From a virus: DNA of 40,912 nt. Each line of letters begins with the position of its first letter. Position 1 is the first letter of the stretch. Of this stretch, positions 8,558 to 28,677 are shown piece by piece. The translations under genes and the position numbers were made by a program. The notes under the pieces are model-generated. The model did not search any database. It saw only the letters and a list, made by a program, of their open reading frames with translations, and was not told the DNA's origin. The stretch lies in IMG/VR virus record IMGVR_UViG_3300013021_000005, positions 1 to 40,912 of that record; one strand, 5' to 3'.

Positions 8558-8735
8558 CAATAATATCTTTTAATTTATTAATACAGGCCAAATAACCATC
8601 TTTATAGCCTCTACTGAACAGTAACTGCTCTTTCTCTGATTTATGCCTTAAATCAAGCTCTTTTACATTATTTTGGGGTATATCCTCATACTCTCTTACT
8701 AATCTATATATCTTACCTATAGTTTTAATGTCCAT
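8544..8735 (-). CDS. Hypothetical protein, 63 aa
   Basis: Basic, probably helical protein (IYRLVREYEDIPQNN, KEQLLFSRGYKDGYLACINKL). Overlaps the end of the polymerase gene by 11 nt and the next gene by 14 nt, so it is translated as part of the polymerase operon. Function unknown. Confidence 0.6.
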   Translation of the reverse strand: MDIKTIGKIYRLVREYEDIPQNNVKELDLRHKSEKEQLLFSRGYKDGYLACINKLKDIIDGKL

Positions 8736-9612
8736 TGTTTATTACATCAATTATTTTATAACATTCTCTAATATAATAATCTTTATTAATATTATTACTA
8801 TGATAGTCTATATCTTTAATTATATTAAGTAATTCACACTTGTATCCAACTTCTAAATTTGTTTCACGATCTTTTTCAACTAGTACATCTTCTATAAAGT
8901 GAAACATATCTAGCTGATTAGGATTTTGCTTACGATATTTTTCTAATCTATCAGCCTTGTATGTACCATCTGAATTTTTTAATGCTGGCATTACTTTAAT
9001 TAAATCAATACCATCTTTAGCAATATAATATCTATTATTCTTCTGTAATGGTTTATCTACATTATTCTTTCTTGCTACTAATTTGTTTTTACCAGTAGCT
9101 CTACCTCTTTTACAGAAGTCTAATATACCATAGTTTTTAATTGGTTTATCTGGATTATTAGTAGTGTAGTTTTTACCTGACAAATGATTAGATATAGTAT
9201 TTACAATAGGTTTATTATTAATATAATATTCAGATAATGCTAATGGTACAATTCGCATTGAATGATTTTTATGCCATGCTCTATCTATTTCAAATGCACC
9301 TTTGTATTTAATCTTACCATTATCGTATACTGCTAAATAATTATTTACATCTCTAATAACCATTTTACTATATTCAGCAAACTCCATTTCTAAATGAGTA
9401 TATTCCTCCCATTCTTTAGTAAGTTTTTGAATTACATCAACATCCGATCTATTACATTGTAATGTAAATCCATCAGTGTTACCTTGTAAAAATATTACAG
9501 GTACTGTAAGATATATGGTTTCCAATAACATTGATAATGATAACTGTCCATTTAGTGTAATTCTAAGTAATGATTCAGGGTCATACAAGAAACTATTTTC
9601 ATCATTCATTTT
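8725..9612 (-). CDS. Family B DNA polymerase, exon 2 (C-terminal half)
   Basis: Continues exon 1 in frame: after the predicted splice the first codons are AAA ATG AAT (K-M-N), completing motif B as NGSFG-K. About 44 residues into the exon is NTDG, equivalent to the DTDS motif C with Asp and Ser replaced, flanked by beta-strand-like VPVIFLQG and FTLQ. The rest is the thumb region, with Lys/Arg-rich segments. The spliced protein would be 658 aa, compact for family B. The ATG at 9609 is an internal codon, not a true start. The end overlaps the next gene by 11 nt. Confidence 0.85.
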   Translation of the reverse strand, partial: KMNDENSFLYDPESLLRITLNGQLSLSMLLETIYLTVPVIFLQGNTDGFTLQCNRSDVDVIQKLTKEWEEYTHLEMEFAEYSKMVIRDVNNYLAVYDNGKIKYKGAFEIDRAWHKNHSMRIVPLALSEYYINNKPIVNTISNHLSGKNYTTNNPDKPIKNYGILDFCKRGRATGKNKLVARKNNVDKPLQKNNRYYIAKDGIDLIKVMPALKNSDGTYKADRLEKYRKQNPNQLDMFHFIEDVLVEKDRETNLEVGYKCELLNIIKDIDYHSNNINKDYYIRECYKIIDVINNGH

Positions 9613-9886
9613 CAGTTTGTTAATATGGCTTTTTTAATTACCATTTCTACACTTTCGTTTTTAAGTTATATGTGTAGCTCAGACTATATCATCATCCCAT
9701 TAGGATGTCGGATGTTCGTGGATATATTATATTCTAAACAAGGAAAGTGGTATAACACATCATTTTCCTTAGATGATGGACAATTCTAATCCCACATCCC
9801 ACTTTTACATATTAGTTTACTTATTTACTAATATAACTTATTTAGTTTCAATATCTAGTCGTTGAACCTTCTAGCTTTTTTAAGGG

Positions 9887-10711
9887 CTAGCTTGGCTGCT
9901 GATTGTCCTCTTCAGGGTTTTCCAGCAATTTATCCGATTCCTCTCTAATATTGCTACTAGGAGGGGCTATAAGTTTAAAATAGAGATTTTTATAAGGTTT
10001 TCCAGAGTTATTACTTTTTATAATCCATTGAGATAATAACTGTTTTTCTGAACAACCTTTTAAAGACCCTTTACGAGCAATAATTGGTAAATTATTTTCA
10101 TTAGTTTTAGACCAGTCCTCTAAGTCTTTAGCTGAATTCCATCGACCTAAAAAATTCATATTAATATCATATACGTCAACTTCGGGAAGAGCAGACCTTT
10201 TAGTTGCATTGTCTTTAGATCTATCCCCTTTCCTCTTTTTAGGAACTTTTAAATGATCTGTTGATTTATACTTCTTACCTTTATTCCAAGGTATTTTTCC
10301 TTTTAGCTTTTCCGTACCATTATCTTTCCAGAATCTCTTTATAGCTTCTGTACGTCTAATTATAACTTCTTTAGATACTTTAGGTATTTCTTTAGCTAAA
10401 GGATTAATATTGTACAAATTTTCAATACTATATTTATCAATATAATATTGTTCTCTGTCTAAAACTTTTGACTTATCTTCTATTACTTCAAGTATTTCAA
10501 ACACCATATTATCTTCACCGTGTTTATTCCAACTTCTCTGGAGGTGAATATTATCATGCTTATTATTTTTAAGCATCGAATGATGATGTCTAAATCTTAC
10601 AATAAAAGATTGTCTAGTACTTCCTATGTAGAACATACCAGTAACTAAATTGGTTATTTTATAAATACCAATCTTCTTTAAATTTACCACACTATTACTA
10701 TCAATATTCAT
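9887..10711 (-). CDS. GIY-YIG homing endonuclease of the PolB intron
   Basis: 274 aa. The N-terminal nuclease domain carries GIYKITN and FYIGST (GIY-YIG), an Arg in RFRHH and a catalytic-type Glu in DREQYYIDKY. The C-terminal DNA-binding part contains a NUMOD3-like element (GKIPWNKGKKY) and a NUMOD1-like element (VDVYDINMNFLGRWNSAKDL). It would cut intronless PolB alleles and promote spread of the intron. The TAG stop lies inside an inverted CTAGC/GCTAG just before the P7 strand, so the gene end is embedded in the ribozyme core. A possible own promoter lies 16 nt upstream. Confidence 0.88.
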   Translation of the reverse strand: MNIDSNSVVNLKKIGIYKITNLVTGMFYIGSTRQSFIVRFRHHHSMLKNNKHDNIHLQRSWNKHGEDNMVFEILEVIEDKSKVLDREQYYIDKYSIENLYNINPLAKEIPKVSKEVIIRRTEAIKRFWKDNGTEKLKGKIPWNKGKKYKSTDHLKVPKKRKGDRSKDNATKRSALPEVDVYDINMNFLGRWNSAKDLEDWSKTNENNLPIIARKGSLKGCSEKQLLSQWIIKSNNSGKPYKNLYFKLIAPPSSNIREESDKLLENPEEDNQQPS

Positions 10712-10726
10712 ATTAAAATTTTAATA

Positions 10727-10757
10727 CAAATATAATAAATAATAATGTAAAACGCAA
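10727..10757 (-). promoter_or_regulatory. Possible Bacteroides-type promoter for the intron endonuclease
   Basis: On the minus strand TATATTTG (10727-10734) matches the -7 element TAnnTTTG, and CTTG lies 19 nt upstream, close to the -33 TTTG. It would allow the endonuclease to be made independently of PolB transcription. The match is short and the area is AT-rich. Confidence 0.4.
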
Positions 10758-10799
10758 GTAAATGCGACTTTAATTTAATCTATTATAAACTTTATCTTA

Positions 10800-11888
10800 A
10801 CCAAATGAACCGTTTAATGCTATCTTTAATCCATAGTTCCTAGAATCAGATTTAGGTATAGATTTACGTTTAAAATACATATCTTTATATATATTACTAA
10901 ATGCTTCTCCTAAATGTCTAGGTCTAATATTATTTACAATTGCAAGATTTGGATAAAAACTAGCTACATCAAGATCTAAAATTACTTTATTTTCATCAGA
11001 TTCATATACTCCAGGTTCAATACAACCATGCAGTCCGCCTTGACCATAGTCTATTGTAAAATCACCTAATTTAGCTGAATAATGAAAACTACCTTTAGTA
11101 TCTGTAGTAGTAAATGATTTAATTTTATTTAATAAAGTATTTAGTTCTGGAGTTTGAAACTTAATAATATCCAGTATATACTTGTTAAACTCTAGTTTAT
11201 CTACATAAGTACGCATTTTTTTAAGATCCCACTTATTTATATTCATTTCAGTAGCTAATTTGCTAAGAAATATTTGTTCACCTATTTTAGGATCGTTAGC
11301 ATTTATTAAATCGAGATCGTGTTCTTTTGATAAATCTTGACGTAATATAATCTCATTTTTAGACTCTAGATAAAATTTATGTGTAGCATCCACATCATTT
11401 ATACAGTAATTAATAACATCATTAAAATATTCTAACGGTACTTCTTCTTTATTACCAAATGGTAAATCTTGTACAGTTTCCATTCGCATAGCAATTTCAA
11501 GTGCTTTGAGAGATGTTGCTTTAGCCTTATTATCAAAATGCCATATTTTATATAAATCTAATTGTGGTATTTTTACATCTCTATCTCGTACAGTTGAATA
11601 CTCTAAACTAATTATATAATTGGCATAGTTATGTATTGCTAATATAAGTTCATCAGTATTTTTATATTTATAATAGTTATTAAGTAACCAATGTATTACA
11701 GGATAATCAAATGCAAGATTATTATAACCTATATGTTTTAAACCAGGGGATGATAGGTATTTAATCAACCTATCAACCTGGTTTAATCTATAACTTATTT
11801 CAAATGTATGTATCTGTTTAGTATTAATATCTTTGGCTACTAAACAGAATATGTTGGGAAGTGTTTCTATGTCATATACGTGAATCAT
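10800..11888 (-). CDS. Family B DNA polymerase, exon 1 (exonuclease and palm)
   Basis: 363 codons before the intron. The 3'-5' exonuclease motifs are intact: Exo I YDIE (Asp6, Glu8), Exo II NNLAFD (56-61), Exo III YCIND (161-165). Polymerase motif A is LDLDVASFYPN (about 304-314) and motif B begins KIALNGSFG at the very end, where the intron interrupts it. Read without splicing, the frame meets TAA at 10797-10799, giving a truncated protein. This is the main replicative polymerase of the phage. dUTPase lies 10 nt upstream in the operon. Confidence 0.9.
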
Positions 11889-18313: not shown

Positions 18314-18547
18314 TTATTTAAAAACTCTTTTAAAAGGTACGAAATAACCAGAATCATCAGTCAACACAGCTTCTTCATCAAACCATTCTTCTTCCATATA
18401 ATCTTGTACATCTGGCCATTGAATTAGACAATATGATGATTCTACACAGTCAATAAAATTATTGACTTTTTCACTTGTTTTTTTATCAGCCTGTCCAAAT
18501 TCAAGACCATCACCAATAATTTCTTTTATTTCATCTAATTTATTCAT
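18314..18547 (-). CDS. Hypothetical acidic protein, 77 aa
   Basis: Acidic sequence with VQDYMEEEWFDEEAVLTDD. Its start overlaps the end of the upstream nuclease-like gene by 8 nt. No family recognised. Confidence 0.6.
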   Translation of the reverse strand: MNKLDEIKEIIGDGLEFGQADKKTSEKVNNFIDCVESSYCLIQWPDVQDYMEEEWFDEEAVLTDDSGYFVPFKRVFK

Positions 18548-19145
18548 ATAAAAATTGATTTAATGTCTTATAATTATATTTCAATTTAGAATCACCTTTT
18601 CTACCATATTTACAATCTCTAGCATATCTCTCAATGTCAATCACTTTCTTAGGAGTAAATGTTGATTGAAATAATATACCTGACTTAGTTTTAGGTGCGA
18701 ATGGCTTAATTTTTTGAATATAAATATCATCTTTATCATACAGCCACTTTTGCTTGTAAGGAAACGATATACTACTGCTAGTATTAGCTTCATGCGAGCC
18801 TTTAACTTCAATATAAGAAGTCGGCGCTCCCATATTGTTAATTCTAAATGGTATATCTTTTGCATTACAATCAATAGGCTCCCCTCTATCCAAGTAGAAG
18901 ATATTTTTAGCCTTATCTGTCCAAACTACAGTAAAATCAGCAGTTATACTAGCTTTATGAAGTAAGTGCTCGGCCTTTTCTAATACCTTATATTTACCTT
19001 GTTGTAAGTAAGGCTCAGATACTGATTCACTTAAATCAAATGTATCACTTTCATATGACCATTCCCTAATATAACCAGTTTCTTGTAGCTCTTCTAAATA
19101 ATAGCTAAAATATTCTTCTACTTGACTCTTAAATTTATTTGTCAT
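18540..19145 (-). CDS. Putative PDDEXK nuclease, 201 aa
   Basis: The centre reads ITADFTVVW and, about 45 residues on, SYIEVKGSHE, matching the D ... ExK active-site spacing of restriction-endonuclease-fold enzymes. It then has basic segments (RDCKYGRKGDSKLKYNYK). It may be a resolvase or structure-specific nuclease. Overlaps the ATP-grasp gene by 11 nt and the next gene by 8 nt, so it is tightly co-translated. Confidence 0.6.
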   Translation of the reverse strand: MTNKFKSQVEEYFSYYLEELQETGYIREWSYESDTFDLSESVSEPYLQQGKYKVLEKAEHLLHKASITADFTVVWTDKAKNIFYLDRGEPIDCNAKDIPFRINNMGAPTSYIEVKGSHEANTSSSISFPYKQKWLYDKDDIYIQKIKPFAPKTKSGILFQSTFTPKKVIDIERYARDCKYGRKGDSKLKYNYKTLNQFLYE

Positions 19146-20007
19146 CTCTATTGTTTAATTCAATTACATCTAAACCGTACCTGTCTTTATAGTCTTTTGC
19201 AGTATATGGTATACCCATAAATCCACTAATCGCTTTTATATAAGAGTAATGGGTTGACGAAGGTCTCTTTTGTCCCGGTGCGGTATTGATTTCCAGTACT
19301 TTACACTCGTTAGTTTCAGAATTATAAGCAATGTCTACTGCGCCAAAATCTAATCCAAGAGCATCTACGGCTTTAATAGCTGTTTCTTTAACAATATCTT
19401 CCGCTTCTACACCTTGTCTACAAAACGACCACGCCTTCTTTAAATTGCGAATATAGTCAGAATCCTCGGTCCTAGTTATGCCTTTCTGTGCCATTCTCTC
19501 ACTAGACATAGATTTCTTTTGAACTTCATCAATTACTTTACCATTAAATACGTGAATACGATACTCCTTATCATTTTTAAAATATTCGGTATATAACCTA
19601 GCATCTACTATCTCATCAGGTGTTTTAGCAAGAATAATACCTTTTCCTTCTCTACCCCTGGTAATAGTTCTGCAATAAATAATATTACCCTCTCCACAAG
19701 ACTTAATAGCGTCGTCTTTATTTAAAAAGAATTTAACATGAGCTACATTATTTTGTTTAAGTAATCTAAGAGTAGCAATTTTATCAGAAGCTCTATCAAC
19801 AGCAATAGGCTTATTTAGTAGAGTGAAATTACTGCTACTATTTTCTAACACAGGTGCGACTCCTCTAAACCCCCAATTAAGAACTACATCCCCATCTTTA
19901 GGCCTATAATTACGGTTAGGGTAGACACGTTTAGTATTAAAATGTTTAGAAATAGCTTTTGAAGATAAACTATTCATTGCGTATGGAAGAATTCTTAATC
20001 TAGTCAT
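19135..20007 (-). CDS. ATP-grasp (RimK-like) ligase
   Basis: 290 aa. The C-terminal ATP-grasp core shows GREGKGIILA (nucleotide loop), YTEYFKNDKEYRIHVFNGKV, and metal-binding FGAVDIAY followed by VLEINTAPG. ATP-grasp enzymes of this group form amide bonds between a carboxylate and an amine through an acyl-phosphate. A PDDEXK-like gene overlaps it downstream. Upstream in the operon lie an amidoligase, a glutamine amidotransferase and a COOH-NH2 ligase, pointing to a joint peptide or amide-forming pathway. The substrate cannot be read from sequence. Confidence 0.85.
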   Translation of the reverse strand: MTRLRILPYAMNSLSSKAISKHFNTKRVYPNRNYRPKDGDVVLNWGFRGVAPVLENSSSNFTLLNKPIAVDRASDKIATLRLLKQNNVAHVKFFLNKDDAIKSCGEGNIIYCRTITRGREGKGIILAKTPDEIVDARLYTEYFKNDKEYRIHVFNGKVIDEVQKKSMSSERMAQKGITRTEDSDYIRNLKKAWSFCRQGVEAEDIVKETAIKAVDALGLDFGAVDIAYNSETNECKVLEINTAPGQKRPSSTHYSYIKAISGFMGIPYTAKDYKDRYGLDVIELNNRDDK

Positions 20008-20025
20008 AATTAATTAGTTACAAAA

Positions 20026-20421
20026 TTATTTAAATATTTTATTTCTATCGAGAACTACAAGTACAAGCATCATTTTACTACCATTAGTACTTATATAACG
20101 CTTAATATTTTGTTTCTTAGAAAAGGGTTTGAGATTTTTTAGAATAGCATATGAATCATATTCTGTAATATCTAGTAGCATTTGATGTTTATTAACTTTC
20201 CTACAAACAGCTTTTAAGATGTCTTTCATATCTTTTTTACCGTAAGCAGTAAACTCATCTGCATATGCTATCCCGAAAGTTTGGCAATTACCATTGGGAT
20301 CTTCGTGTACTACAAAATTTACACAATTTCCAATATCACTAACACTATCGGTGGCAATATCTGTAAATTTATATTCAGTATTATAAAAACCTTTAATCTT
20401 TTCAATTTCTAAATCAATCAT
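20026..20421 (-). CDS. Hypothetical protein, 131 aa
   Basis: ATG at 20421 overlaps the UDG stop (ATGA-type); an upstream TTG is less likely. Mixed alpha/beta composition (NCVNFVVHEDPNG, KMMLVLVVLDRNKIF). Lies between ATP-grasp and UDG. It might be part of the amide-bond cluster, but there is no recognised motif. Confidence 0.6.
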   Translation of the reverse strand: MIDLEIEKIKGFYNTEYKFTDIATDSVSDIGNCVNFVVHEDPNGNCQTFGIAYADEFTAYGKKDMKDILKAVCRKVNKHQMLLDITEYDSYAILKNLKPFSKKQNIKRYISTNGSKMMLVLVVLDRNKIFK

Positions 20422-21092
20422 AACCAATTTATATTAGTATCATAATTATCTTTTATTAACTGATCTAATTCTTTAAAATTAAAATTCCATATTCTACCTT
20501 GTCTAGCAGCAAATGATGGATGTTCTGCTTCTAATATATAATTAGAATTAGTATTAATGTATTGCTTATAGCTTTGAGCATGTTTACCCCACAAACAATA
20601 TATTATACCTGAATTATATTCTGATAATCTTATTAATAATTGTTTAGTAAATTCTCTCCATAGTTTATAGTGACTACCAGGTTTACCTTTTTCTACCGTT
20701 AATATAGTATTATATAAAAATATACCCTGTTTAGCCCATAATGTTAAATCTTTATCTAGGGGATTTGTTTGATTAAAACCAAGTTCAACCCTTTCCTTAA
20801 TCTTTCTAAGAGATGGGCTAAGGCCATTTGATTCCAAACTATTAGAAAAAGCTAGCCCTGTAGCCCTATTGTTTGGGTAGGGGTCTTGTCCAATAATAAA
20901 TACTTTTAAATCTTCATAATTAGTTAATTGAAATGCTTTAAATACATTTTTCTTATCTGGATATATTTCTTTACTCAAATATTCATTATCTAATGTTTTC
21001 AGTAACTTATAAAAGTAGTCAGATAGTAGTATAGGTCTTAACAACCTATACCAACTACCTACTAATTTCTTTGCAAATTCTTCATGTACCAT
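20418..21092 (-). CDS. ung: Uracil-DNA glycosylase (family 1)
   Basis: 224 aa, the expected size. Motifs: GQDPYPNNRATGLAFSN (water-activating Asp), FLYNTILTVEKGKPGSH, and AEHPSFAARQG (the HPS loop with catalytic His). It removes uracil from DNA; with dUTPase and ThyX it implies that this phage excludes uracil. Encoded inside the amide-bond gene cluster rather than next to the other nucleotide genes. Confidence 0.93.
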   Translation of the reverse strand: MVHEEFAKKLVGSWYRLLRPILLSDYFYKLLKTLDNEYLSKEIYPDKKNVFKAFQLTNYEDLKVFIIGQDPYPNNRATGLAFSNSLESNGLSPSLRKIKERVELGFNQTNPLDKDLTLWAKQGIFLYNTILTVEKGKPGSHYKLWREFTKQLLIRLSEYNSGIIYCLWGKHAQSYKQYINTNSNYILEAEHPSFAARQGRIWNFNFKELDQLIKDNYDTNINWL

Positions 21093-22514
21093 TCATACCA
21101 ATTCTTTTATAGGAAATTTAAAATTATTTAGATTATCATTCATTACATCTAATACACCGATAAAATCTTTATGAACATTTTGGTTATATTTCATAAGATC
21201 TTTACGATACTGAATATATGCCTTTAAATAGCCTTTTAAGACCTTATTTTGATAACATTGGGTAATAATACTACTAAGGTCAATTTTAGTGTTAAAATAA
21301 GGCTCATTTTTAATTTTATTAGCATACTCAACTATAGATGTAATAATAAACAACCATGCTGCTATTTTATCTTTATTGAAAGTATTAGTATGTATTCTAA
21401 ACTCAATAGTACCAGTACCTTTAAATGCAAAGTGATTTAGATTACATATAGAGTATCTAGACCTACTATTCCACTTATGATACCCGTCTGGATCTACTGG
21501 GTTAGCCATTCCTAAGCTAAAATCTTCATAATGTAAATTACCATCAGATAAGTATCTAATTATATAACTTAAATCATGTTTAAAATCTTTATATGTAATT
21601 CTATTTTTAGGTAAAGGCTTACAATAGTTCTTTTGGCTTCTTTTAAATATGCTTGTCTTCTTAATAAATAGTGGGAACATTTCATATAGTTCTTTCTGTA
21701 ATACAGATACAGTTCTATATAATGCTACCAACATTTCAACAGACCTTTCATAGCCTCCTATATGAATATGTAGGCTCTCATTAACACTTTTAGTACAATA
21801 CCTATCCAGTAAGTTACAATGCTCTTTAACAGCATGAAGTACATTATTTTTATTCAATATTATAGTTGCATACTCAAAAGATATCCCTGTAGATCTACGT
21901 AAGCTACCATCTTTTACAGGAACCATACCAGTTTTCATACATTTATTCTCTGGTATTCTCCCTGCATTAGTTTCATATTCTATACCATAGGTAGCATTAT
22001 TAGGTAATTCTTTGTAAAAGTTCTTAATTATAGGTGCTTCAAAATGATTATTAAAAGTCTTTGTAAACTCATCTAATCTATAATTAACACTATAATCAGT
22101 CTCTCTACTATATCTGCCACCTACTCTTTTTTTATAAAAACCTTTATCAACATATGCTTTTGTGTAATATTTACCTGAAGATAACTCCTCTACGTAGTCA
22201 TTGGTGATAATATCTTCATTTAGTACAGGACCTCTATTAAATATGTAAGCATTCTTAAATTTATTAGGTTTAAAATAACCGTATATTAGCTCTTTTTTAT
22301 TGAAACCTACTATACCTTTAATATAGTCATCAGTCTTTAATACATGTTTTTTAGTATCATGATCATAAATAATCTTATTTGTATCAATACGATAGTAGCG
22401 TCCATTATTCATTTTAAAACATTGTCTACCTATTTCATAATATTTACCATCATATTTTCTACAATTAGACTTTAAAGCTTTGCTACCATCGTATGTAATT
22501 ACTTCTTTAATCAT
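21093..22514 (-). CDS. Putative amidoligase (Amidoligase_2 type)
   Basis: 473 aa from ATG 22514; a GTG two codons upstream is possible. After a beta-rich N-terminal third comes the glutamine-synthetase-like core: YGIEYETNAG, KDGSLRRS with SFEYAT, SLHIHIGG, RTVSVLQKELYEMFP, and GTIEFRIHTN near the end. The order (GxExE, DGS, HxHxG, EFR) is that of the amidoligase fold, related to glutamate-cysteine ligase and predicted to join amines to carboxylates using ATP. It overlaps the glutamine amidotransferase gene by 8 nt. Confidence 0.75.
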   Translation of the reverse strand: MIKEVITYDGSKALKSNCRKYDGKYYEIGRQCFKMNNGRYYRIDTNKIIYDHDTKKHVLKTDDYIKGIVGFNKKELIYGYFKPNKFKNAYIFNRGPVLNEDIITNDYVEELSSGKYYTKAYVDKGFYKKRVGGRYSRETDYSVNYRLDEFTKTFNNHFEAPIIKNFYKELPNNATYGIEYETNAGRIPENKCMKTGMVPVKDGSLRRSTGISFEYATIILNKNNVLHAVKEHCNLLDRYCTKSVNESLHIHIGGYERSVEMLVALYRTVSVLQKELYEMFPLFIKKTSIFKRSQKNYCKPLPKNRITYKDFKHDLSYIIRYLSDGNLHYEDFSLGMANPVDPDGYHKWNSRSRYSICNLNHFAFKGTGTIEFRIHTNTFNKDKIAAWLFIITSIVEYANKIKNEPYFNTKIDLSSIITQCYQNKVLKGYLKAYIQYRKDLMKYNQNVHKDFIGVLDVMNDNLNNFKFPIKELV

Positions 22515-24291
22515 TATCACCTATTTCAGAAAGTTTATTTTCAATTTCTTCTAATACTGCAATAGCTTTATTACCGGGTTTACTACCTTCATAAACTTGT
22601 ATTACATTAATACAATCTTGAATATTTTTCAAAGCATTTGCGACTTCATTAACAACCTCTCTCTTAATCATTTGGTCTTCAGGAGACTCATAATCATCAT
22701 CAAAAGGTAGTTTTTCTAAAAATGGATTGGATTTATTATACTTTTCATACTCTTGGTAAGCTTGTTCATATGCTTCCGCTGATTCATCTTCTTTAGAATC
22801 AGTAATCCATTCCCCTTCTGATATATCAGAATGATCTGCAAACTTCCAAGTACCAGTATTGGTTGTTTTAAGACTACCTCTTATGTACTCGTACTCTTTA
22901 CTACTAAATAGGGGGGTAATTTCCCCTGTAAAATACCACCAATCTTTTCTATCTTTGTTCCAACAACACATTGTACCATCAGTACCATATTTATGTACTG
23001 GGTATACCGATACTCTACATAGTTCTTTCATAATGAAACTTTGTTTAGCATCATTACCGGTATCTTTAAACTTCTTCATGTACTCTTGGAAGCTAATATG
23101 GTCAGTAATCATACAGCCGTCTATAAAGTAATATGGTTTAGTTTTAACCCATTCTGAAGCAAATTCCCCACTTGGTTTATCATGAATCTTACCGGTTTTG
23201 TCTAAATGATAAATACCATGTGCTTTTTTACCTTTATTATCCCAATATCTACCCTTTGCATAAGCAATTGATTCATGTAATATAGGTAAAGTTTCTTCCT
23301 CTATTTTATTGGCTTTACTAGTAGCAGTATTTGCGGGTAAGGAGTTCCTTTTAGCATCATAATTATTATATGCTTTGTTTTTAAAGTAATCCCATCCAGT
23401 ATTATAATTACTACTATAAGTAGATTTTTTATACTGACCAGCTTTTCTAGTAATTTTAATGGTATCAATTAATTTACCTTCTTCAAATACATGAATCTCA
23501 TTACTACTTAAATTATTTATTTCAGGATATTGCTTCTGAGTAATAACCCATAAAGGAGTTTCTTCTGAAGAAAACCATATATTATCCCTCTCTTTCAGTA
23601 GATATAAAGGTCTTTCTTCTACTTCATTTAGGGCTTTTTCATAAGATTTGCTACTACCTTTAAATAGATACAACCTATCCTCCCTAAAATCAAACCAAGC
23701 CAAAGCAGCGCTCCCCTGGTATTTTTCAAGAATAGAATAGTCTTCTTTAACCAATAGAGTCCAAAATAATATTTGTGAATCATTAGGAGAGTGTTCTATA
23801 ATTTCTTCTCCATCAATATACTCCAACTTATCAGGCACTCCATACTCTTCTTTCAAGTCACTATCATTATATAAAGTACCATTATGCATACCCATACCTA
23901 TAATAGTACCTGTAATATCTCTTACCGGGTAAGGCTGAGTAAATTCTATACCACCAGTTCCTTTAGCAAATGCTGAGGTTTTTCTGGTATGACCAAACAT
24001 TACAGTTTCCTCTTTATAAGCAGGATTTAAATTATCTCTAATAATCTCAGTATAAGTATTACAATTCTTGCTATTATAGTGTTCATAACTGCCACCAATC
24101 ATTCTACCAGCAGCATCACCGCCTCTTTTATCATTAAGAACTCCTAACATATTGAAGTCCTTCCAATTAAATCTTTTATTATCCTTTCCAAAATAACCCC
24201 AAATACCACACGAAAGTGCAGTATAAGGGGTTTTAGTGATGTAATGGATAAATAAATTTACTATTAATATACTAAGAATAATATTTATCAT
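22507..24291 (-). CDS. Class II glutamine amidotransferase with N-terminal leader
   Basis: 594 aa. The Ntn-hydrolase signature CGIWGYFG begins at about residue 28, followed by DKRGGDAAGR, FGHTRKTSAFAKGTG, GMHNGTLYND, SQILFWTLL and AALAWFD, the pattern of GATase class II domains that release ammonia from glutamine. The predicted nucleophile Cys28 is preceded by a hydrophobic leader (MINIILSILIVNLFIHYI), so it needs processing to become N-terminal. The C-terminal half (about 300-594) is unfamiliar, Lys- and Tyr-rich, with an acidic end. It may supply ammonia or transfer an amide in the adjacent amidoligase pathway. Confidence 0.8.
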   Translation of the reverse strand: MINIILSILIVNLFIHYITKTPYTALSCGIWGYFGKDNKRFNWKDFNMLGVLNDKRGGDAAGRMIGGSYEHYNSKNCNTYTEIIRDNLNPAYKEETVMFGHTRKTSAFAKGTGGIEFTQPYPVRDITGTIIGMGMHNGTLYNDSDLKEEYGVPDKLEYIDGEEIIEHSPNDSQILFWTLLVKEDYSILEKYQGSAALAWFDFREDRLYLFKGSSKSYEKALNEVEERPLYLLKERDNIWFSSEETPLWVITQKQYPEINNLSSNEIHVFEEGKLIDTIKITRKAGQYKKSTYSSNYNTGWDYFKNKAYNNYDAKRNSLPANTATSKANKIEEETLPILHESIAYAKGRYWDNKGKKAHGIYHLDKTGKIHDKPSGEFASEWVKTKPYYFIDGCMITDHISFQEYMKKFKDTGNDAKQSFIMKELCRVSVYPVHKYGTDGTMCCWNKDRKDWWYFTGEITPLFSSKEYEYIRGSLKTTNTGTWKFADHSDISEGEWITDSKEDESAEAYEQAYQEYEKYNKSNPFLEKLPFDDDYESPEDQMIKREVVNEVANALKNIQDCINVIQVYEGSKPGNKAIAVLEEIENKLSEIGDND

Positions 24292-24297
24292 CTAATT

Positions 24298-24915
24298 TTA
24301 TTTAATTAAGATTTTGTACTCTTCTCCTTCATATCTACCAATTAATCTAAATTCTAATCCTTTTGGTAAAAATTGTTTTCTTAAATGCCTTACTACCCCT
24401 TTTAACGTTTTAATATGAGCAGTATTAGTATATGTGGGGTAATATATACTATGAGCTGTCCAAGTTCTACTTTCGTCATTGTAACTCCAGTCTAAAGATT
24501 TAGCTTGTAGCCACCAAGACATTTTACCACCAAAAGGTTTATTATGTATAAAATAGGAGTTATCTTTTAAAGGTTTAATTATAACCTTCCTATTCTGCTT
24601 AAAATCATCCGGTAATTTAGGTGGGAATTCTAATCCTTGAAACTCACTAAAGGTTTTACTACTATAAACTTCCTTCATTCTTTCTAATATGAAATCACTT
24701 TTACAGTTTTGTATCAAGTAGATATCAATCCATGTAGGGGTATTCATAATAGGTATCTCGCCATTTTCAAAGTCTTGTTTATTATACTGCCATACCCAAT
24801 CTCCTATACATTCCTTATGTCCGTTAAAAAATGTAACTATTTGACTGTCAGCCCAACTTTTAAATTCCTTATAATTATCATAAGAATCAGTATATGTTTT
24901 ATCAATTCCAGCCAT
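24298..24915 (-). CDS. Unknown protein of the amide-bond cluster, 205 aa
   Basis: Trp- and Tyr-rich soluble protein (CIGDWVWQY, KMSWWLQAKSLDWSYN) ending in HLRKQFLPKGLEFRLIGRYEG. It lies between the COOH-NH2 ligase-like gene and the amidotransferase gene, with a 6-nt gap to the latter. Its conserved position could mean a substrate or partner role in the cluster; no family recognised. Confidence 0.65.
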   Translation of the reverse strand: MAGIDKTYTDSYDNYKEFKSWADSQIVTFFNGHKECIGDWVWQYNKQDFENGEIPIMNTPTWIDIYLIQNCKSDFILERMKEVYSSKTFSEFQGLEFPPKLPDDFKQNRKVIIKPLKDNSYFIHNKPFGGKMSWWLQAKSLDWSYNDESRTWTAHSIYYPTYTNTAHIKTLKGVVRHLRKQFLPKGLEFRLIGRYEGEEYKILIK

Positions 24916-24935
24916 TGTATTAATTATAGTTTATT

Positions 24936-25817
24936 TTAAATACTTACCACTCTTGGTCGGTATGATAACGCCATTTCTTCCATTTCTTCCAAAATACCTC
25001 TTAGATTCCTTCTAATAGGTTCCTCTATAGAGATATTTGTATCTACAGGAACCTGTTCTAACAAGTCAATGCCTAAGAATTCATAATTATCGTATGAAGC
25101 TTCTGTTAGCGAATGCAGTTTTTCACAGTTTTCTATAGATGTGCAAAAATTTATTGTTTTGCGAGTTTGTTGATAAATCCATTCTAAGAATTGCCTTTGT
25201 AGGAAATAACCACCTAATGCTCTAAATTCCACCCCATATGCAGTATCTCGATAAGAACCATACGCACCATAGTTATTTCTACGTTCTTTTGTGAAATGAA
25301 TAGTATCAGCTGGTAGGCTTACAAAATAATCAAAAGCTCTGGCTAACCACTCATTCATTTGCATAGGATCTATATCATCTCTAAGCATTTTATAACCTAC
25401 ATGAATATGGGCACCTACAGGTCTAAATAAACTTTTACCTAAATCAGGAGATGCTTTGGTTTTTCTAGACCAAGCGTCGTTATAACTGCTACAACCAAAC
25501 TCTTGGCCATCTTCTGTTACAATGAACCGTTTATTATATTTAACTAGATCTTGATAATAAATATATGTATTATCTACATTTACAACAGAGTTTATTAAGT
25601 TCTGTAGGAATAGCATATTTCTATAAAACTCCTCGAAGTTTTTAGAAGGTGGTATATTACCTTCAACTAATAAGTTATCTTTAAGTATAGCAAACCCATC
25701 CCCTTTATCTTCAGGATGATGTTTAGTACCTATAAAATATTGATAAGAAGGTACATTAATATTACCTTTTCTTAATGCAAATTCTGGGTCAGAACCTATT
25801 GTTTGGAACTCAATCAT
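24936..25817 (-). CDS. Phage COOH-NH2 ligase-type 2 (phiEco32-like)
   Basis: 293 aa. Starts with GSDPEFAL (acidic metal site), then GDGFAILKDNLLVEGNIPP, GCSSYNDAW, RPVGAHIHVGY, and YGVEFRALGG. These are the ordered motifs of the glutamine-synthetase-like COOH-NH2 ligase family described from phage phiEco32-type systems, which associate with ATP-grasp, GATase II and GGCT genes. It is predicted to form amide bonds using ATP. The start overlaps the upstream gene by 4 nt. Confidence 0.82.
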   Translation of the reverse strand: MIEFQTIGSDPEFALRKGNINVPSYQYFIGTKHHPEDKGDGFAILKDNLLVEGNIPPSKNFEEFYRNMLFLQNLINSVVNVDNTYIYYQDLVKYNKRFIVTEDGQEFGCSSYNDAWSRKTKASPDLGKSLFRPVGAHIHVGYKMLRDDIDPMQMNEWLARAFDYFVSLPADTIHFTKERRNNYGAYGSYRDTAYGVEFRALGGYFLQRQFLEWIYQQTRKTINFCTSIENCEKLHSLTEASYDNYEFLGIDLLEQVPVDTNISIEEPIRRNLRGILEEMEEMALSYRPRVVSI

Positions 25818-26191
25818 ATTAGTCTAATTTTTTGAAATTGTTTATAAAGATAATCAACTGGATGTATTTTTGTAAAGTCATAATTACAAATATCCCATAA
25901 AAACCCATATTCTTCCATTAGCTTTTCAGAATGTCCAATAGTTTTTGGTCTACTTGCCTGGATATTGGGATATAGTTTTACTATGCAGAATTCAAACCAA
26001 TGTATATTAAAATGACTTTCACTGTTTTTATCATATATGGCAAATACATTATTAAAATCTGACTTTAAAACCCTGCCATACATATCGTATTCCCATGAAA
26101 ATTTACTTTTAGGAAATAACTTTGTAGCCATCTCTAATAACTTATCTTTATGATCTTCTGTTAATTCAATAGGTGTCATACCAAAATCCAT
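25814..26191 (-). CDS. Hypothetical protein, 125 aa
   Basis: Soluble; includes FNIHWFEFCIVKLYPNI and ends HPVDYLYKQFQKIRLI. Overlaps the GGCT-like gene by 26 nt and the COOH-NH2 ligase gene by 4 nt, so it is firmly within the amide-bond cluster. No recognised catalytic motif. Confidence 0.65.
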   Translation of the reverse strand: MDFGMTPIELTEDHKDKLLEMATKLFPKSKFSWEYDMYGRVLKSDFNNVFAIYDKNSESHFNIHWFEFCIVKLYPNIQASRPKTIGHSEKLMEEYGFLWDICNYDFTKIHPVDYLYKQFQKIRLI

Positions 26192-26510
26192 TTTTAATTA
26201 GCTTATCATTATCTCTTAGTTCTCTATTGTATATATACAATAGTACTTCACCCCATTTAGTAATCAATGTTGTTTTATCATATAAATAAGGATACCCTTC
26301 TAAACTATCTAGTCTATCTAAACCCTCTTGATCATTAACTTCATATATTTCAATAAATACTTGATTATCACCTGGTTTAATACCGGGAAATGGTCCTAAA
26401 TCATATAAGTCAAAACCTTTTACTAGTTCTGTACCAATAAATGTATAATTTTCTAGCAACCTATGATTACTATAACCTTTTTTCAATGTACCGTATACTC
26501 CTACAAACAT
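26166..26510 (-). CDS. Gamma-glutamylcyclotransferase (GGCT/AIG2)-like protein
   Basis: 114 aa. The N-terminus VGVYGTLKKGYSNHRLL is the classic GGCT substrate-loop motif (YGSLxxG). It continues with FPGIKPGDNQVFIEIYEV, then LDRLDSLEGYP, containing the predicted catalytic Glu of the family (LDxLEGYP). GGCTs cleave gamma-glutamyl-amines to pyroglutamate and the free amine; in amidoligase gene clusters they are thought to remove or recycle gamma-glutamyl groups. A second, more divergent copy is at 31047-31751. Confidence 0.85.
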   Translation of the reverse strand: MFVGVYGTLKKGYSNHRLLENYTFIGTELVKGFDLYDLGPFPGIKPGDNQVFIEIYEVNDQEGLDRLDSLEGYPYLYDKTTLITKWGEVLLYIYNRELRDNDKLIKNGFWYDTY

Positions 26511-26521
26511 ATTATAGTTAT

Positions 26522-27217
26522 TTAAGCGTGTTGTTTAATATATTTTTTATACTCTTCATTTATATTATACCAATAGTCATGTCCAGATTTTGTTTCAGAC
26601 CAAGTTAAACTATAGTTAATCCATTCATTTGGTTCCTCTGCATTATAATTCATAAACCTTTCAAGACCATTTCTGTCACCCCCCTTAGCTGATTTAAACT
26701 CTCCCATATATTCATCATAGATACCTTTTTCTTCTAAAAATTGAATGAATATACCTTTAGCTTTTTTAATATAAGACTCTTTATCAATTAACTTATATTT
26801 ATCTATTAATTCAAAGCTTTTACTGGCTGTAGCCCATTTAGTTAAATCTCGCCATTGTGGCCCCTTTATAATAATTTCAGAGCGGTCAAATATATTACTA
26901 TTAGTATAATGACCCCATGATTTAAACTCTTTATTATAAAAAGTCATTTGATGCACATCTGGACAAGCTACACACCCTATATCATTACTATTCTCTTCAT
27001 CTAATAAAATCCTAGCTAAGTCACCTTTGGTAGCAGTTTTGAACTTAGATTTTAATAATAGAAATAAATCATTAAATGTTCTTGCTCTATGTGGCCTACA
27101 TTGTATAAAATCATTTTCTATAAAATAAGTAGTAGGAGTATTTAAATTAAGATAAGTTAGGATATATTCTTTCTTGTTATTAATATGTACACCCTCTTTA
27201 TAATAAATCTTTTTCAT
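26522..27217 (-). CDS. Tandem paralogue A, unknown function
   Basis: 231 aa. The first ~110 residues match those of the next gene upstream: YYKEGxHI, KEYIL, NDFIQC, ARxFxDL and LxKSKFKTATKG are shared. This copy has an additional C-terminal part of ~70 residues (YMGEFKSAKGGDRNGLERF, WSETKSGHDYWYNINEEY) absent from the other. The start overlaps the paralogue's end by 20 nt. No known fold recognised. Confidence 0.7.
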   Translation of the reverse strand: MKKIYYKEGVHINNKKEYILTYLNLNTPTTYFIENDFIQCRPHRARTFNDLFLLLKSKFKTATKGDLARILLDEENSNDIGCVACPDVHQMTFYNKEFKSWGHYTNSNIFDRSEIIIKGPQWRDLTKWATASKSFELIDKYKLIDKESYIKKAKGIFIQFLEEKGIYDEYMGEFKSAKGGDRNGLERFMNYNAEEPNEWINYSLTWSETKSGHDYWYNINEEYKKYIKQHA

Positions 27218-27683
27218 AATCTTTAATAGGATTTAAATTTATATCGCTAAGTGAAAACTTTTTACTTCTTAATGCATATTTGAGTAACTTATCAAAGTTA
27301 GGACCTTCTTTTACAAAGGATTCTGTCATATAATGGGTTCTTCTACCTGCAAGATAATTATTTATAAAACCCATAGCTACAACTTTATCTTTAGATATAA
27401 CCATTTTGTAGATACCATCACAATAATATACCCCTACATCTGATTTATTTTTATTTAAAATAATCCTAGCTAGTTCCCCTTTGGTTGCTGTTTTAAATTT
27501 ACTTTTAAATAACCAATATAAGTCATCAAAACTTCTTGCATATTTTTCGTGACATTGTATAAAATCATTATCCCTGTAATATGTTTTTGGGTAATATATA
27601 CCTTCTCCTGATTTAAAGAAGTTTAATATATATTTTTCTTTATCCCTAATATGCTCACCTTCCTTATAATATATTTCTCTCAT
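27198..27683 (-). CDS. Tandem paralogue B, unknown function
   Basis: 161 aa from ATG 27683 (MREIYYKEGEHI); a TTG two codons earlier is less likely. Its N-terminal two thirds parallel the downstream paralogue (KSKFKTATKGELARI against KSKFKTATKGDLARI). The two have diverged elsewhere, so duplication is not recent. It overlaps the primase gene by 20 nt. Confidence 0.7.
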   Translation of the reverse strand: MREIYYKEGEHIRDKEKYILNFFKSGEGIYYPKTYYRDNDFIQCHEKYARSFDDLYWLFKSKFKTATKGELARIILNKNKSDVGVYYCDGIYKMVISKDKVVAMGFINNYLAGRRTHYMTESFVKEGPNFDKLLKYALRSKKFSLSDINLNPIKDYEKDLL

Positions 27684-28677
27684 GTTCAATTAGTTTAATA
27701 CAAGTATCTCTTCCGTTTATTAAATAATAATCAGATATATCTTTTAACATATTACCTGTATTGATATAAGGTAATCCAAATTGTTCCTCTAGTTTTTTAG
27801 CAGCATTAATACCTGCATCATCAAAATCATAAAATGTTATTATTTGATTAAACCTAGATTTTAACTCATTAATAAGACTTTGCTTGAAAGTATAATTCTC
27901 TGTCTGCGGAGCTATAAAATTGTATCCTAGATCGTGGAGACACATACCGTCTTTTAATGAGGAGGCTATGAATAGTAGTTCCGATTCCTCTGGTAATTGG
28001 ATATACCCGCTTAGGGTATTTGGAAGAAAGTTGTTTATCCATTTTAAATACTCATTTTCAGGTTGATATATTTTAAATCTCGTTAGATTATTCTTAAACT
28101 CTGTATAACCATAAGCTAACTTATCAGCTTTAAAAATCTTATTATTAATAAATATATATTGTAGAGGTTTAACTTTATACTTATTTAAAGTATTTAAGCT
28201 TACTCCATAGGAATTCCAATATTCAATGTCCCAAGGTTTCCACACTCTACTCTTAATATTTAAGTCAATTGTCTTTTTAAGCTGCTTTAAGTCTACTTTA
28301 TGAGTAACAGGTGGCCTAGGACCACTTTTAGATAGATTGTGCCTTAAATGGAATCTATTTGACAAATTAAAGTCAATTACAACTTGTTCTAAGGCTTCTT
28401 TATATGATAAATTTAATTTATTCTGTACAAATGTAATTGCTCCACCTTTCTCACCAGTTCTTAAATCCTTATACAATATTCTATCAGTGTATCTATCTGA
28501 AATATATACTGCAAATGACGGGTGATTATCTTTTCTAAAGGGAGAACTAATTACACTATTCAATTTAAATTCTGGTAAATAATGTCTAAATATATCGTAA
28601 TCAGATATGTAATTTAATATATTATCTTCTGTGACTAATAACTTTTGTTGAAATCTCTCATCGTTTAGATTTATCAT
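27664..28677 (-). CDS. DnaG-type primase
   Basis: 337 aa. The N-terminal part resembles the primase zinc-binding/CHC2-like region without its cysteines: SPFRKDNHPSFAVY, YKDLRTGEKGGAITFVQ. The TOPRIM part follows: ELLFIASSLKDGMCL, FIAPQTEN, and FYDFDDAGINAAKKL (the DxD). The arrangement is that of small phage primases. The first twelve residues (MINLNDERFQQK) nearly repeat the start of the SSB-like protein at 30215. Its start lies inside the end of a small TAA-interrupted gene. Confidence 0.82.
   Translation of the reverse strand: MINLNDERFQQKLLVTEDNILNYISDYDIFRHYLPEFKLNSVISSPFRKDNHPSFAVYISDRYTDRILYKDLRTGEKGGAITFVQNKLNLSYKEALEQVVIDFNLSNRFHLRHNLSKSGPRPPVTHKVDLKQLKKTIDLNIKSRVWKPWDIEYWNSYGVSLNTLNKYKVKPLQYIFINNKIFKADKLAYGYTEFKNNLTRFKIYQPENEYLKWINNFLPNTLSGYIQLPEESELLFIASSLKDGMCLHDLGYNFIAPQTENYTFKQSLINELKSRFNQIITFYDFDDAGINAAKKLEEQFGLPYINTGNMLKDISDYYLINGRDTCIKLIEHERNIL

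Follow-up and report, generated by a model that had tools for sequence, protein, structure and literature searches.

A phiEco32-type amidoligase cassette in a crAss-like phage contig, with a membrane-anchor-like segment ahead of the catalytic cysteine of its glutamine amidotransferase

The stretch of DNA analysed here (the window) comprises positions 1 to 40,912 of IMG/VR virus record IMGVR_UViG_3300013021_000005, a 40.9-kb contig of a bacterial virus related to crAss-like phages. It contains a cluster of amide-bond-forming genes within a replication module (DnaB, Sak4, primase, cassette, uracil-DNA glycosylase (UDG), exonuclease, RtcB, PhoH, ribonucleotide reductase, DNA polymerase and Thy1). 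Five enzymes were identified in this cluster by family matches (E-values in brackets): a RimK-type ATP-grasp ligase at 19135-20007 (PF08443, 2.9e-5; PHROG 2599, 2e-61), an Amidoligase_2 protein at 21093-22520 (PF12224, 4e-10), a class II glutamine amidotransferase (GATase) at 22507-24291 (PF13522, 1.4e-5, just under the Pfam cut-off), a phiEco32-type COOH-NH2 ligase at 24936-25817 (PF14395, 1.1e-7; PHROG 3815, 1e-39) and a gamma-glutamyl cyclotransferase-like protein (GGCT) at 26166-26510 (PF06094, 5e-20). The minus strand holds all substantial genes, with tiny gaps, from the primase that flanks the cassette upstream (27664-28677; PHROG 12622, 1.7e-49) to position 18540, and between neighbouring cassette open reading frames (ORFs) the gap or overlap does not exceed about 26 bp. 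The initial annotation of the window had named the same five enzymes in this compact one-strand arrangement, and the family matches and ORF positions bear it out. Its gene list also held three unassigned ORFs, which exist, but it omitted the UDG gene at 20418-21092 (PF03167, 1.7e-15), located between the ATP-grasp and amidoligase genes, and missed the membrane-anchor-like GATase N-terminus and the probable foreign origin of the RimK gene described below.

With a RimK-type ATP-grasp ligase, PF14395, PF12224, a class II GATase and a GGCT in co-directional order, adjoining primase and replication genes, the cluster is almost certainly a member of the known phiEco32/LUZ24-type amidoligase cassette. 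Both homology and gene content confirm the proposed likeness to the phiEco32-type system. The E. coli phage SU10 (Kuravirus, Gordonclarkvirinae) has the same five families, co-directional and in a block adjoining the primase gene, but differs from the window in a 200-aa unassigned gene between the amidoligases, in the lack of a UDG at the cassette, in a GATase that begins with MCG and has no membrane segment, and in a longer ATP-grasp protein (400 aa). A 'peptidoglycan modification cassette' has been published for the podoviruses RIO-1/PSA-HP1, CW02, PA11, LUZ24, PaP3 and tf (PMC5498523, citing Hardies 2013 and Iyer); its members likewise combine an ATP-grasp ligase, two amidoligases, a GATase and a GGCT amid replication genes, whereas the window derives from a crAss-like phage and has a UDG, a longer amidoligase and a GATase with a membrane-anchor-like segment. 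A class I (C26-type) GATase, also part of that comparison, was not found within the 41-kb window, which may be a genome fragment. A full-text search of open-licence papers for crAss-like phages and amidoligases returned no paper reporting the cassette in crAss-like phages.

Residue conservation was read from alignments of 67 to 85 homologues per family. In the RimK-type protein, the family-invariant residues K76, E148, R150, D225, E239 and N241 are all intact. The COOH-NH2 ligase has D10, E12, D47, E52, H137, H139, R179, E197 and R199 (at least 98% conserved in the family) and the Amidoligase_2 protein E181, E183, D204, E216, H251, H253, E373 and R375 (at least 99%). The latter carries a crAss-type N-terminal extension of about 170 aa, and hhalign relates the protein to the podovirus form (1e-18). 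As a counterpart of this extension, the 200-aa gene that separates the two amidoligases in podoviruses was considered and dropped, as no similarity was found. In the GATase, C28, R103, N137, G138 and D171 are invariant and correspond to the expected catalytic Cys and the Arg, Asn-Gly and Asp residues that bind the gamma-glutamyl group, while Y6, G7, L9 and the presumed catalytic E71 are conserved in the GGCT. All five enzymes therefore keep family-invariant, probable catalytic residues, and the cassette appears complete and is probably active.

To obtain relatives, 2.9 million viral contigs were scanned with profiles, yielding 505 relatives of the COOH-NH2 ligase and 16 of the amidoligase. Linkage was scored in 54 loci that were non-redundant at 80% COOH-NH2 ligase identity and had at least 5 kb of flank on both sides. 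RimK, class II GATase and Amidoligase_2 genes all lay within 8 kb of the COOH-NH2 ligase gene and on the same strand in 51 of the 54 loci, a count to be read with the caveat that loci were fetched by similarity to cassette members. A GGCT was present in 43/54 loci and a class I (C26-type) GATase in 37/54, with at least one of the two in 52/54. In crAss-type loci, the GATase gene lies directly beside that of Amidoligase_2 in 40 of 42 cases (median gap 2 bp, one strand throughout). The initial annotation had regarded loss of the metal/ATP sites, or genes that are never linked in related genomes, as evidence against its reading; the presumed site residues proved conserved in the alignments (conservation, as distinct from assay), and the genes are linked in nearly all non-redundant loci.

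Complete or almost complete copies of the set were seen in Crassvirales (Steigviridae), Zobellviridae, Gordonclarkvirinae, Grimontviridae, LUZ24-like phages and a cyanophage of Leptolyngbya, and about 300 records in one phage collection match the COOH-NH2 ligase. Hosts named in the listed phage records are Gram-negative without exception. A primase gene near the cassette was also seen in cr108_1, phi14:2, CW02, SU10, O4, CVT22 and tf. In phi14:2 and cr108_1 (Crassvirales, Steigviridae), the cassette lies between primase and UDG/exonuclease genes, as in the window; no GGCT was found in the cr108_1 stretch, whereas the window has one. A bacterial chromosomal ancestor was considered and dropped, since only 12 loci were recovered from the genome collection, mostly the same cassette on contigs of metagenome-assembled genomes (MAGs) that are probably phage. 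As a further partner, a nucleotidyltransferase resembling CCA enzymes, which was noted in tf, SU10 and CW02, was dropped, with no match in the fetched loci.

Several loci showed variations of their own. A Ca. Stahlbacteria MAG contig (L118) encodes a COOH-NH2 ligase, two C26-type hydrolases and a GGCT near an SLT/LysM protein, in a stretch without RimK and Amidoligase_2. L028, L029, L054 and L084 have at least two C26-type class I GATase genes around the COOH-NH2 ligase gene, one of them long (326-347 aa). In a sublineage (L032, L034, L039, L049, L052, L070, L074 and L091), a further class II GATase-like (Ntn) gene, unlike the first and in most cases beginning with MC, directly follows Amidoligase_2. 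In the Leptolyngbya phage (L005, 1-3705), genes for nicotinate phosphoribosyltransferase (PncB) and PRPP synthetase, possibly an NAD-salvage pair, precede the cassette.

The feature that sets the GATase of the window apart lies at its N-terminus (24211-24291, minus strand). The ORF opens with MINIILSILIVNLFIHYITKTPYTALS, a membrane-helix-like extension placed directly before the nucleophile Cys28, with the helix-like segment ending just ahead of this residue. In the AlphaFold model, a helix spans residues 2-19, the Ntn domain is modelled with confidence at about 29-280, and another domain follows at about 330-480. The GATase profile matches solved PurF at about 1e-17, and the fold of the Ntn domain matches ASNS, GFAT, PurF and EgtC. 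A fold search of the PDB gave no match for the C-terminal domain, and a known synthase domain was therefore dropped as its identity; proteins J and K of the window (see below) were dropped as equivalents of this domain because hhalign gave no match, and the similarity of J to the Vp_R1 ATP-grasp protein amounts to a short motif.

In all, 24 distinct extensions of the membrane-like kind were collected, window included, and about 24 crAss-type relatives, among them phi14:2, share the trait. A 17-residue hydropathy window (KD17) reached at least 2.0 in 21 of the 24 extensions, against 3% for the N-terminal 30 residues of other ORFs and 7% for random translations of matched composition. Lys and Arg residues are distributed asymmetrically around the helix, with 3 before and 50 after it across the extensions, and these positive charges on the C-terminal side predict a cytoplasmic GATase. 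A lipoprotein signal (L-[AST]-[GA]-C) does not fit, since the consensus has L at -2 and N, S, T or Y at -1, and the helix is separated from Cys by about 8-10 residues, most of them polar.

The extension of the window must be translated, because it lacks an internal ATG, GTG or TTG codon ahead of Cys28. GATase homologues without an extension begin with MCG, and Cys28 aligns with residue 1 of mature PurF chains. PurF is made with a short propeptide, which is removed to expose Cys1. As the cysteine is residue 28, with no adjoining start codon, it would become N-terminal only if a propeptide were cleaved, as in PurF. By profile, B. subtilis PurF ranks with the solved structures closest to the Ntn domain; it differs from the phage protein in that its propeptide is short and not membrane-like and in having a phosphoribosyltransferase domain instead of a C-terminal domain without PDB match. 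We infer that the GATase is cytoplasmic and attached to the inner membrane through a propeptide that needs removal. The membrane-anchor-like segment before the catalytic Cys is a new, previously unreported feature, and its position points tentatively to a set that acts at the cell membrane, possibly with a cell-wall precursor as substrate.

The history of the RimK gene probably differs from that of its neighbours. The ATP-grasp protein of the window falls, together with those of L013 and L020, inside the podovirus-type RimK clade (support 100/99), with the other crAss-type RimK proteins on the opposite side of the tree; some long branches were flagged in this tree, so that the precise sister group is uncertain. 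In the same three loci, the RimK gene lies outside the usual crAss slot: phi14:2 and cr108_1 carry a RimK of the crAss clade upstream of the COOH-NH2 ligase, as do most crAss-type loci, whereas the podovirus-type gene of the window lies downstream of the UDG gene. The amidoligase, GATase and COOH-NH2 ligase of the window are closest to crAss-type homologues and to the Leptolyngbya phage. The RimK gene is thus probably a xenologous replacement, judged by its phylogenetic and genomic position, a pattern suggesting that either RimK type can stand in for the other.

Across unrelated phages, a class II GATase and a GGCT-like protein are linked with three ATP-dependent carboxylate-amine ligases, each from a family of its own. 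The GATase may free ammonia from glutamine, or remove a gamma-glutamyl group, for the neighbouring Amidoligase_2, while RimK and the COOH-NH2 ligase would add amino acids to a carboxylate acceptor. GGCT, and in other phages also the C26-type hydrolase, could remove gamma-glutamyl groups. Ligases combined with a supply of ammonia or gamma-glutamyl groups and with one or two enzymes that cleave off gamma-glutamyl groups would fit the formation of successive amide bonds with a protection or recycling step; the multi-step product suggested earlier is in this respect reasonable, if still conjectural. The GATase would be synthesised as a pro-enzyme anchored in the inner membrane, on its cytoplasmic face, and would have to be cut before Cys28 in order to work, in the manner of the PurF propeptide. 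Given its membrane-like tether, a membrane-associated acceptor appears most likely, and the leading candidate would be the peptidoglycan peptide stem, which the phage would modify early in infection so as to alter the wall or prevent superinfection. Taken as a whole, the reading tentatively preferred here, which could well prove wrong, is that of an active cassette with a membrane-anchored pro-enzyme GATase, whose acceptor is most likely an envelope precursor, with the peptidoglycan stem in the lead.

A role of this kind has been suggested before. Altered peptidoglycan peptide side chains and a block to superinfection have been proposed for the podovirus cassettes (PMC5498523), and the peptidoglycan suggestion has been repeated for phiEco32 (PMC10580990); neither paper demonstrates a substrate for any cassette member. 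The initial annotation was thus correct in naming no substrate, although this proposal had already been published. Cassette genes are 'expressed immediately' in phage HP1 (PMC7082346), and peptides of at least three cassette proteins (the ATP-grasp protein, GATase and GGCT) were detected in SU10 lysate (PMC4281155). MurT-GatD, a glutaminase and ligase that amidate a wall precursor, may serve as a working analogue (PMC3267633). Unlike the cassette, this pair belongs to Gram-positive hosts. GatD is also a class I GATase and MurT a Mur ligase, unlike the enzymes of the window.

Several points weigh against the envelope reading. On the GATase tree, the extension appears or disappears about 18 times, supported branches force at least 13 of these changes, and close pairs differ; it is absent from about half of the crAss-type homologues and from the podovirus-type ones examined. 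Because the extension is so labile, membrane tethering appears favoured and not obligatory, and both anchoring and cleavage of the GATase are predictions. The cassette sits in a replication module, which gives no pointer to the cell wall, and the peptidoglycan idea itself stems from earlier authors, who argued by analogy. No substrate, product or phenotype was found in the literature for any phage.

Among the alternatives, modification of a protein is unlikely but ranks first. RimK and the two amidoligases would add amino acids to a phage or host protein, comparable to the glutamates that RimK adds to ribosomal protein S6, and GGCT or the hydrolases would trim gamma-glutamyl groups. This fits the filing of the window ATP-grasp protein with S6-modification enzymes (PHROG 2599) and the predicted modification of host proteins by other phage ATP-grasp ligases of the R2K clade (PMC4431377, PMC7824862), but no conserved substrate protein was found. 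Moreover, relatives of the two amidoligases in the GCS superfamily mostly act on small molecules. The C-terminal tails LENE and LEENV, common to about 19 small ORFs in CVT22 and about 9 in CW02, were dropped as ligation substrates, since their near-identical TTGGAGAATGAATRATG-type codons are the embedded ribosome-binding site of the next gene; no such C-terminal tail was found in the window. The in-frame reading of this site (TTGGAGAATGAATRATG) in CVT22 (L012, 28002-43249) and CW02 (L011, 2-7801) represents a striking case of translational coupling.

A soluble metabolite comes next and is also rather doubtful. Following the logic of butirosin (BtrJ/BtrG) or ergothioneine (EgtA/EgtC) synthesis, the cassette would make a gamma-glutamyl-protected small peptide or amine for counter-defence, inhibition or nitrogen salvage. 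A type of gamma-glutamyl-cleaving enzyme indeed stands beside the ligases in 52/54 loci, the Ntn fold of the GATase also matches EgtC, and the GGCT of tf is annotated as BtrG-like. However, no exporter, carrier protein or biosynthetic enzyme for anything other than amide chemistry was seen as a conserved part of the cassette, and membrane anchoring would be left unexplained.

Attachment of amino acids or amides to a base or nucleotide precursor, protecting phage DNA, is improbable: no base hydroxylase, hydroxymethylase or hypermodification enzyme was identified in the window or the reference cassettes, DNA of the cassette carrier tf is cut by RsaI, HpaI, EcoRV, SmaI and HaeIII (PMC3517423), which argues against wholesale base modification, and a membrane anchor would be odd. 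It is kept at low weight because most of the phages examined carry the cassette amid replication genes and because cassette-bearing Gordonclarkvirinae are unusually resistant to restriction-modification by no known mechanism (PMC11990801); UDG is, in addition, a frequent neighbour in crAss-type loci. The thymidylate synthase match in the window is of the Thy1/ThyX type. That a new amide-linked decoration, derived from glutamine or gamma-glutamyl units and placed on phage DNA or nucleotide precursors, explains this resistance is a long shot.

A UDG gene is found near the cassette in 26/54 loci, none of them podovirus-type, and its gap to the amidoligase gene is at most 150 bp in 23 of these 26. 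The remaining ORFs of the cluster, all on the minus strand, have no assigned function. Protein B (20026-20427) has a 'SNGSKM' region in common with proteins of the Leptolyngbya phage (L005; hhalign, 2e-6); it was dropped as a core component, as other loci often have B about 8-10 kb from the cassette. Protein F (24298-24915), interleaved between the GATase and COOH-NH2 ligase genes, was seen only in the window, in L002/L092 (the same contig) and in L013, whose copy is about 6 kb upstream of the COOH-NH2 ligase gene. Few loci have protein H (25814-26191), and in most of these it adjoins GGCT (L015, L054 and, twice, L084); it is one gene away in L016 and stands apart in L034. None of B, F and H is a core member, and B and F also occur apart from the cassette. 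Proteins J (26522-27217) and K (27198-27689) are paralogues (phmmer, about 1e-31); both are frequent neighbours of GGCT in crAss-type loci, and the J/K family occurs in 29/104 loci, in several directly beside GGCT. Elsewhere in the window, DNA polymerase (8725-11888) is split into two ORFs (8725-9609 and 10797-11888) around a homing endonuclease ORF (9887-10711), which suggests an intron.

Several unrelated groups of phages that infect Gram-negative hosts have thus retained an almost intact five-enzyme set, and the membrane-anchor-like pro-segment narrows the probable site of its chemistry and gives a direct experimental handle. Cleavage and membrane attachment of the glutaminase, and any change in lipid-linked wall precursors, can be addressed now, since cultured carriers exist (phi14:2, BASEL Kuravirus-type phages, HP1 and LUZ24-like phages). 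If the product lay on DNA, it would represent a new class of DNA modification; if it were a wall modification, the cassette would point to a common early takeover of the envelope by phages.

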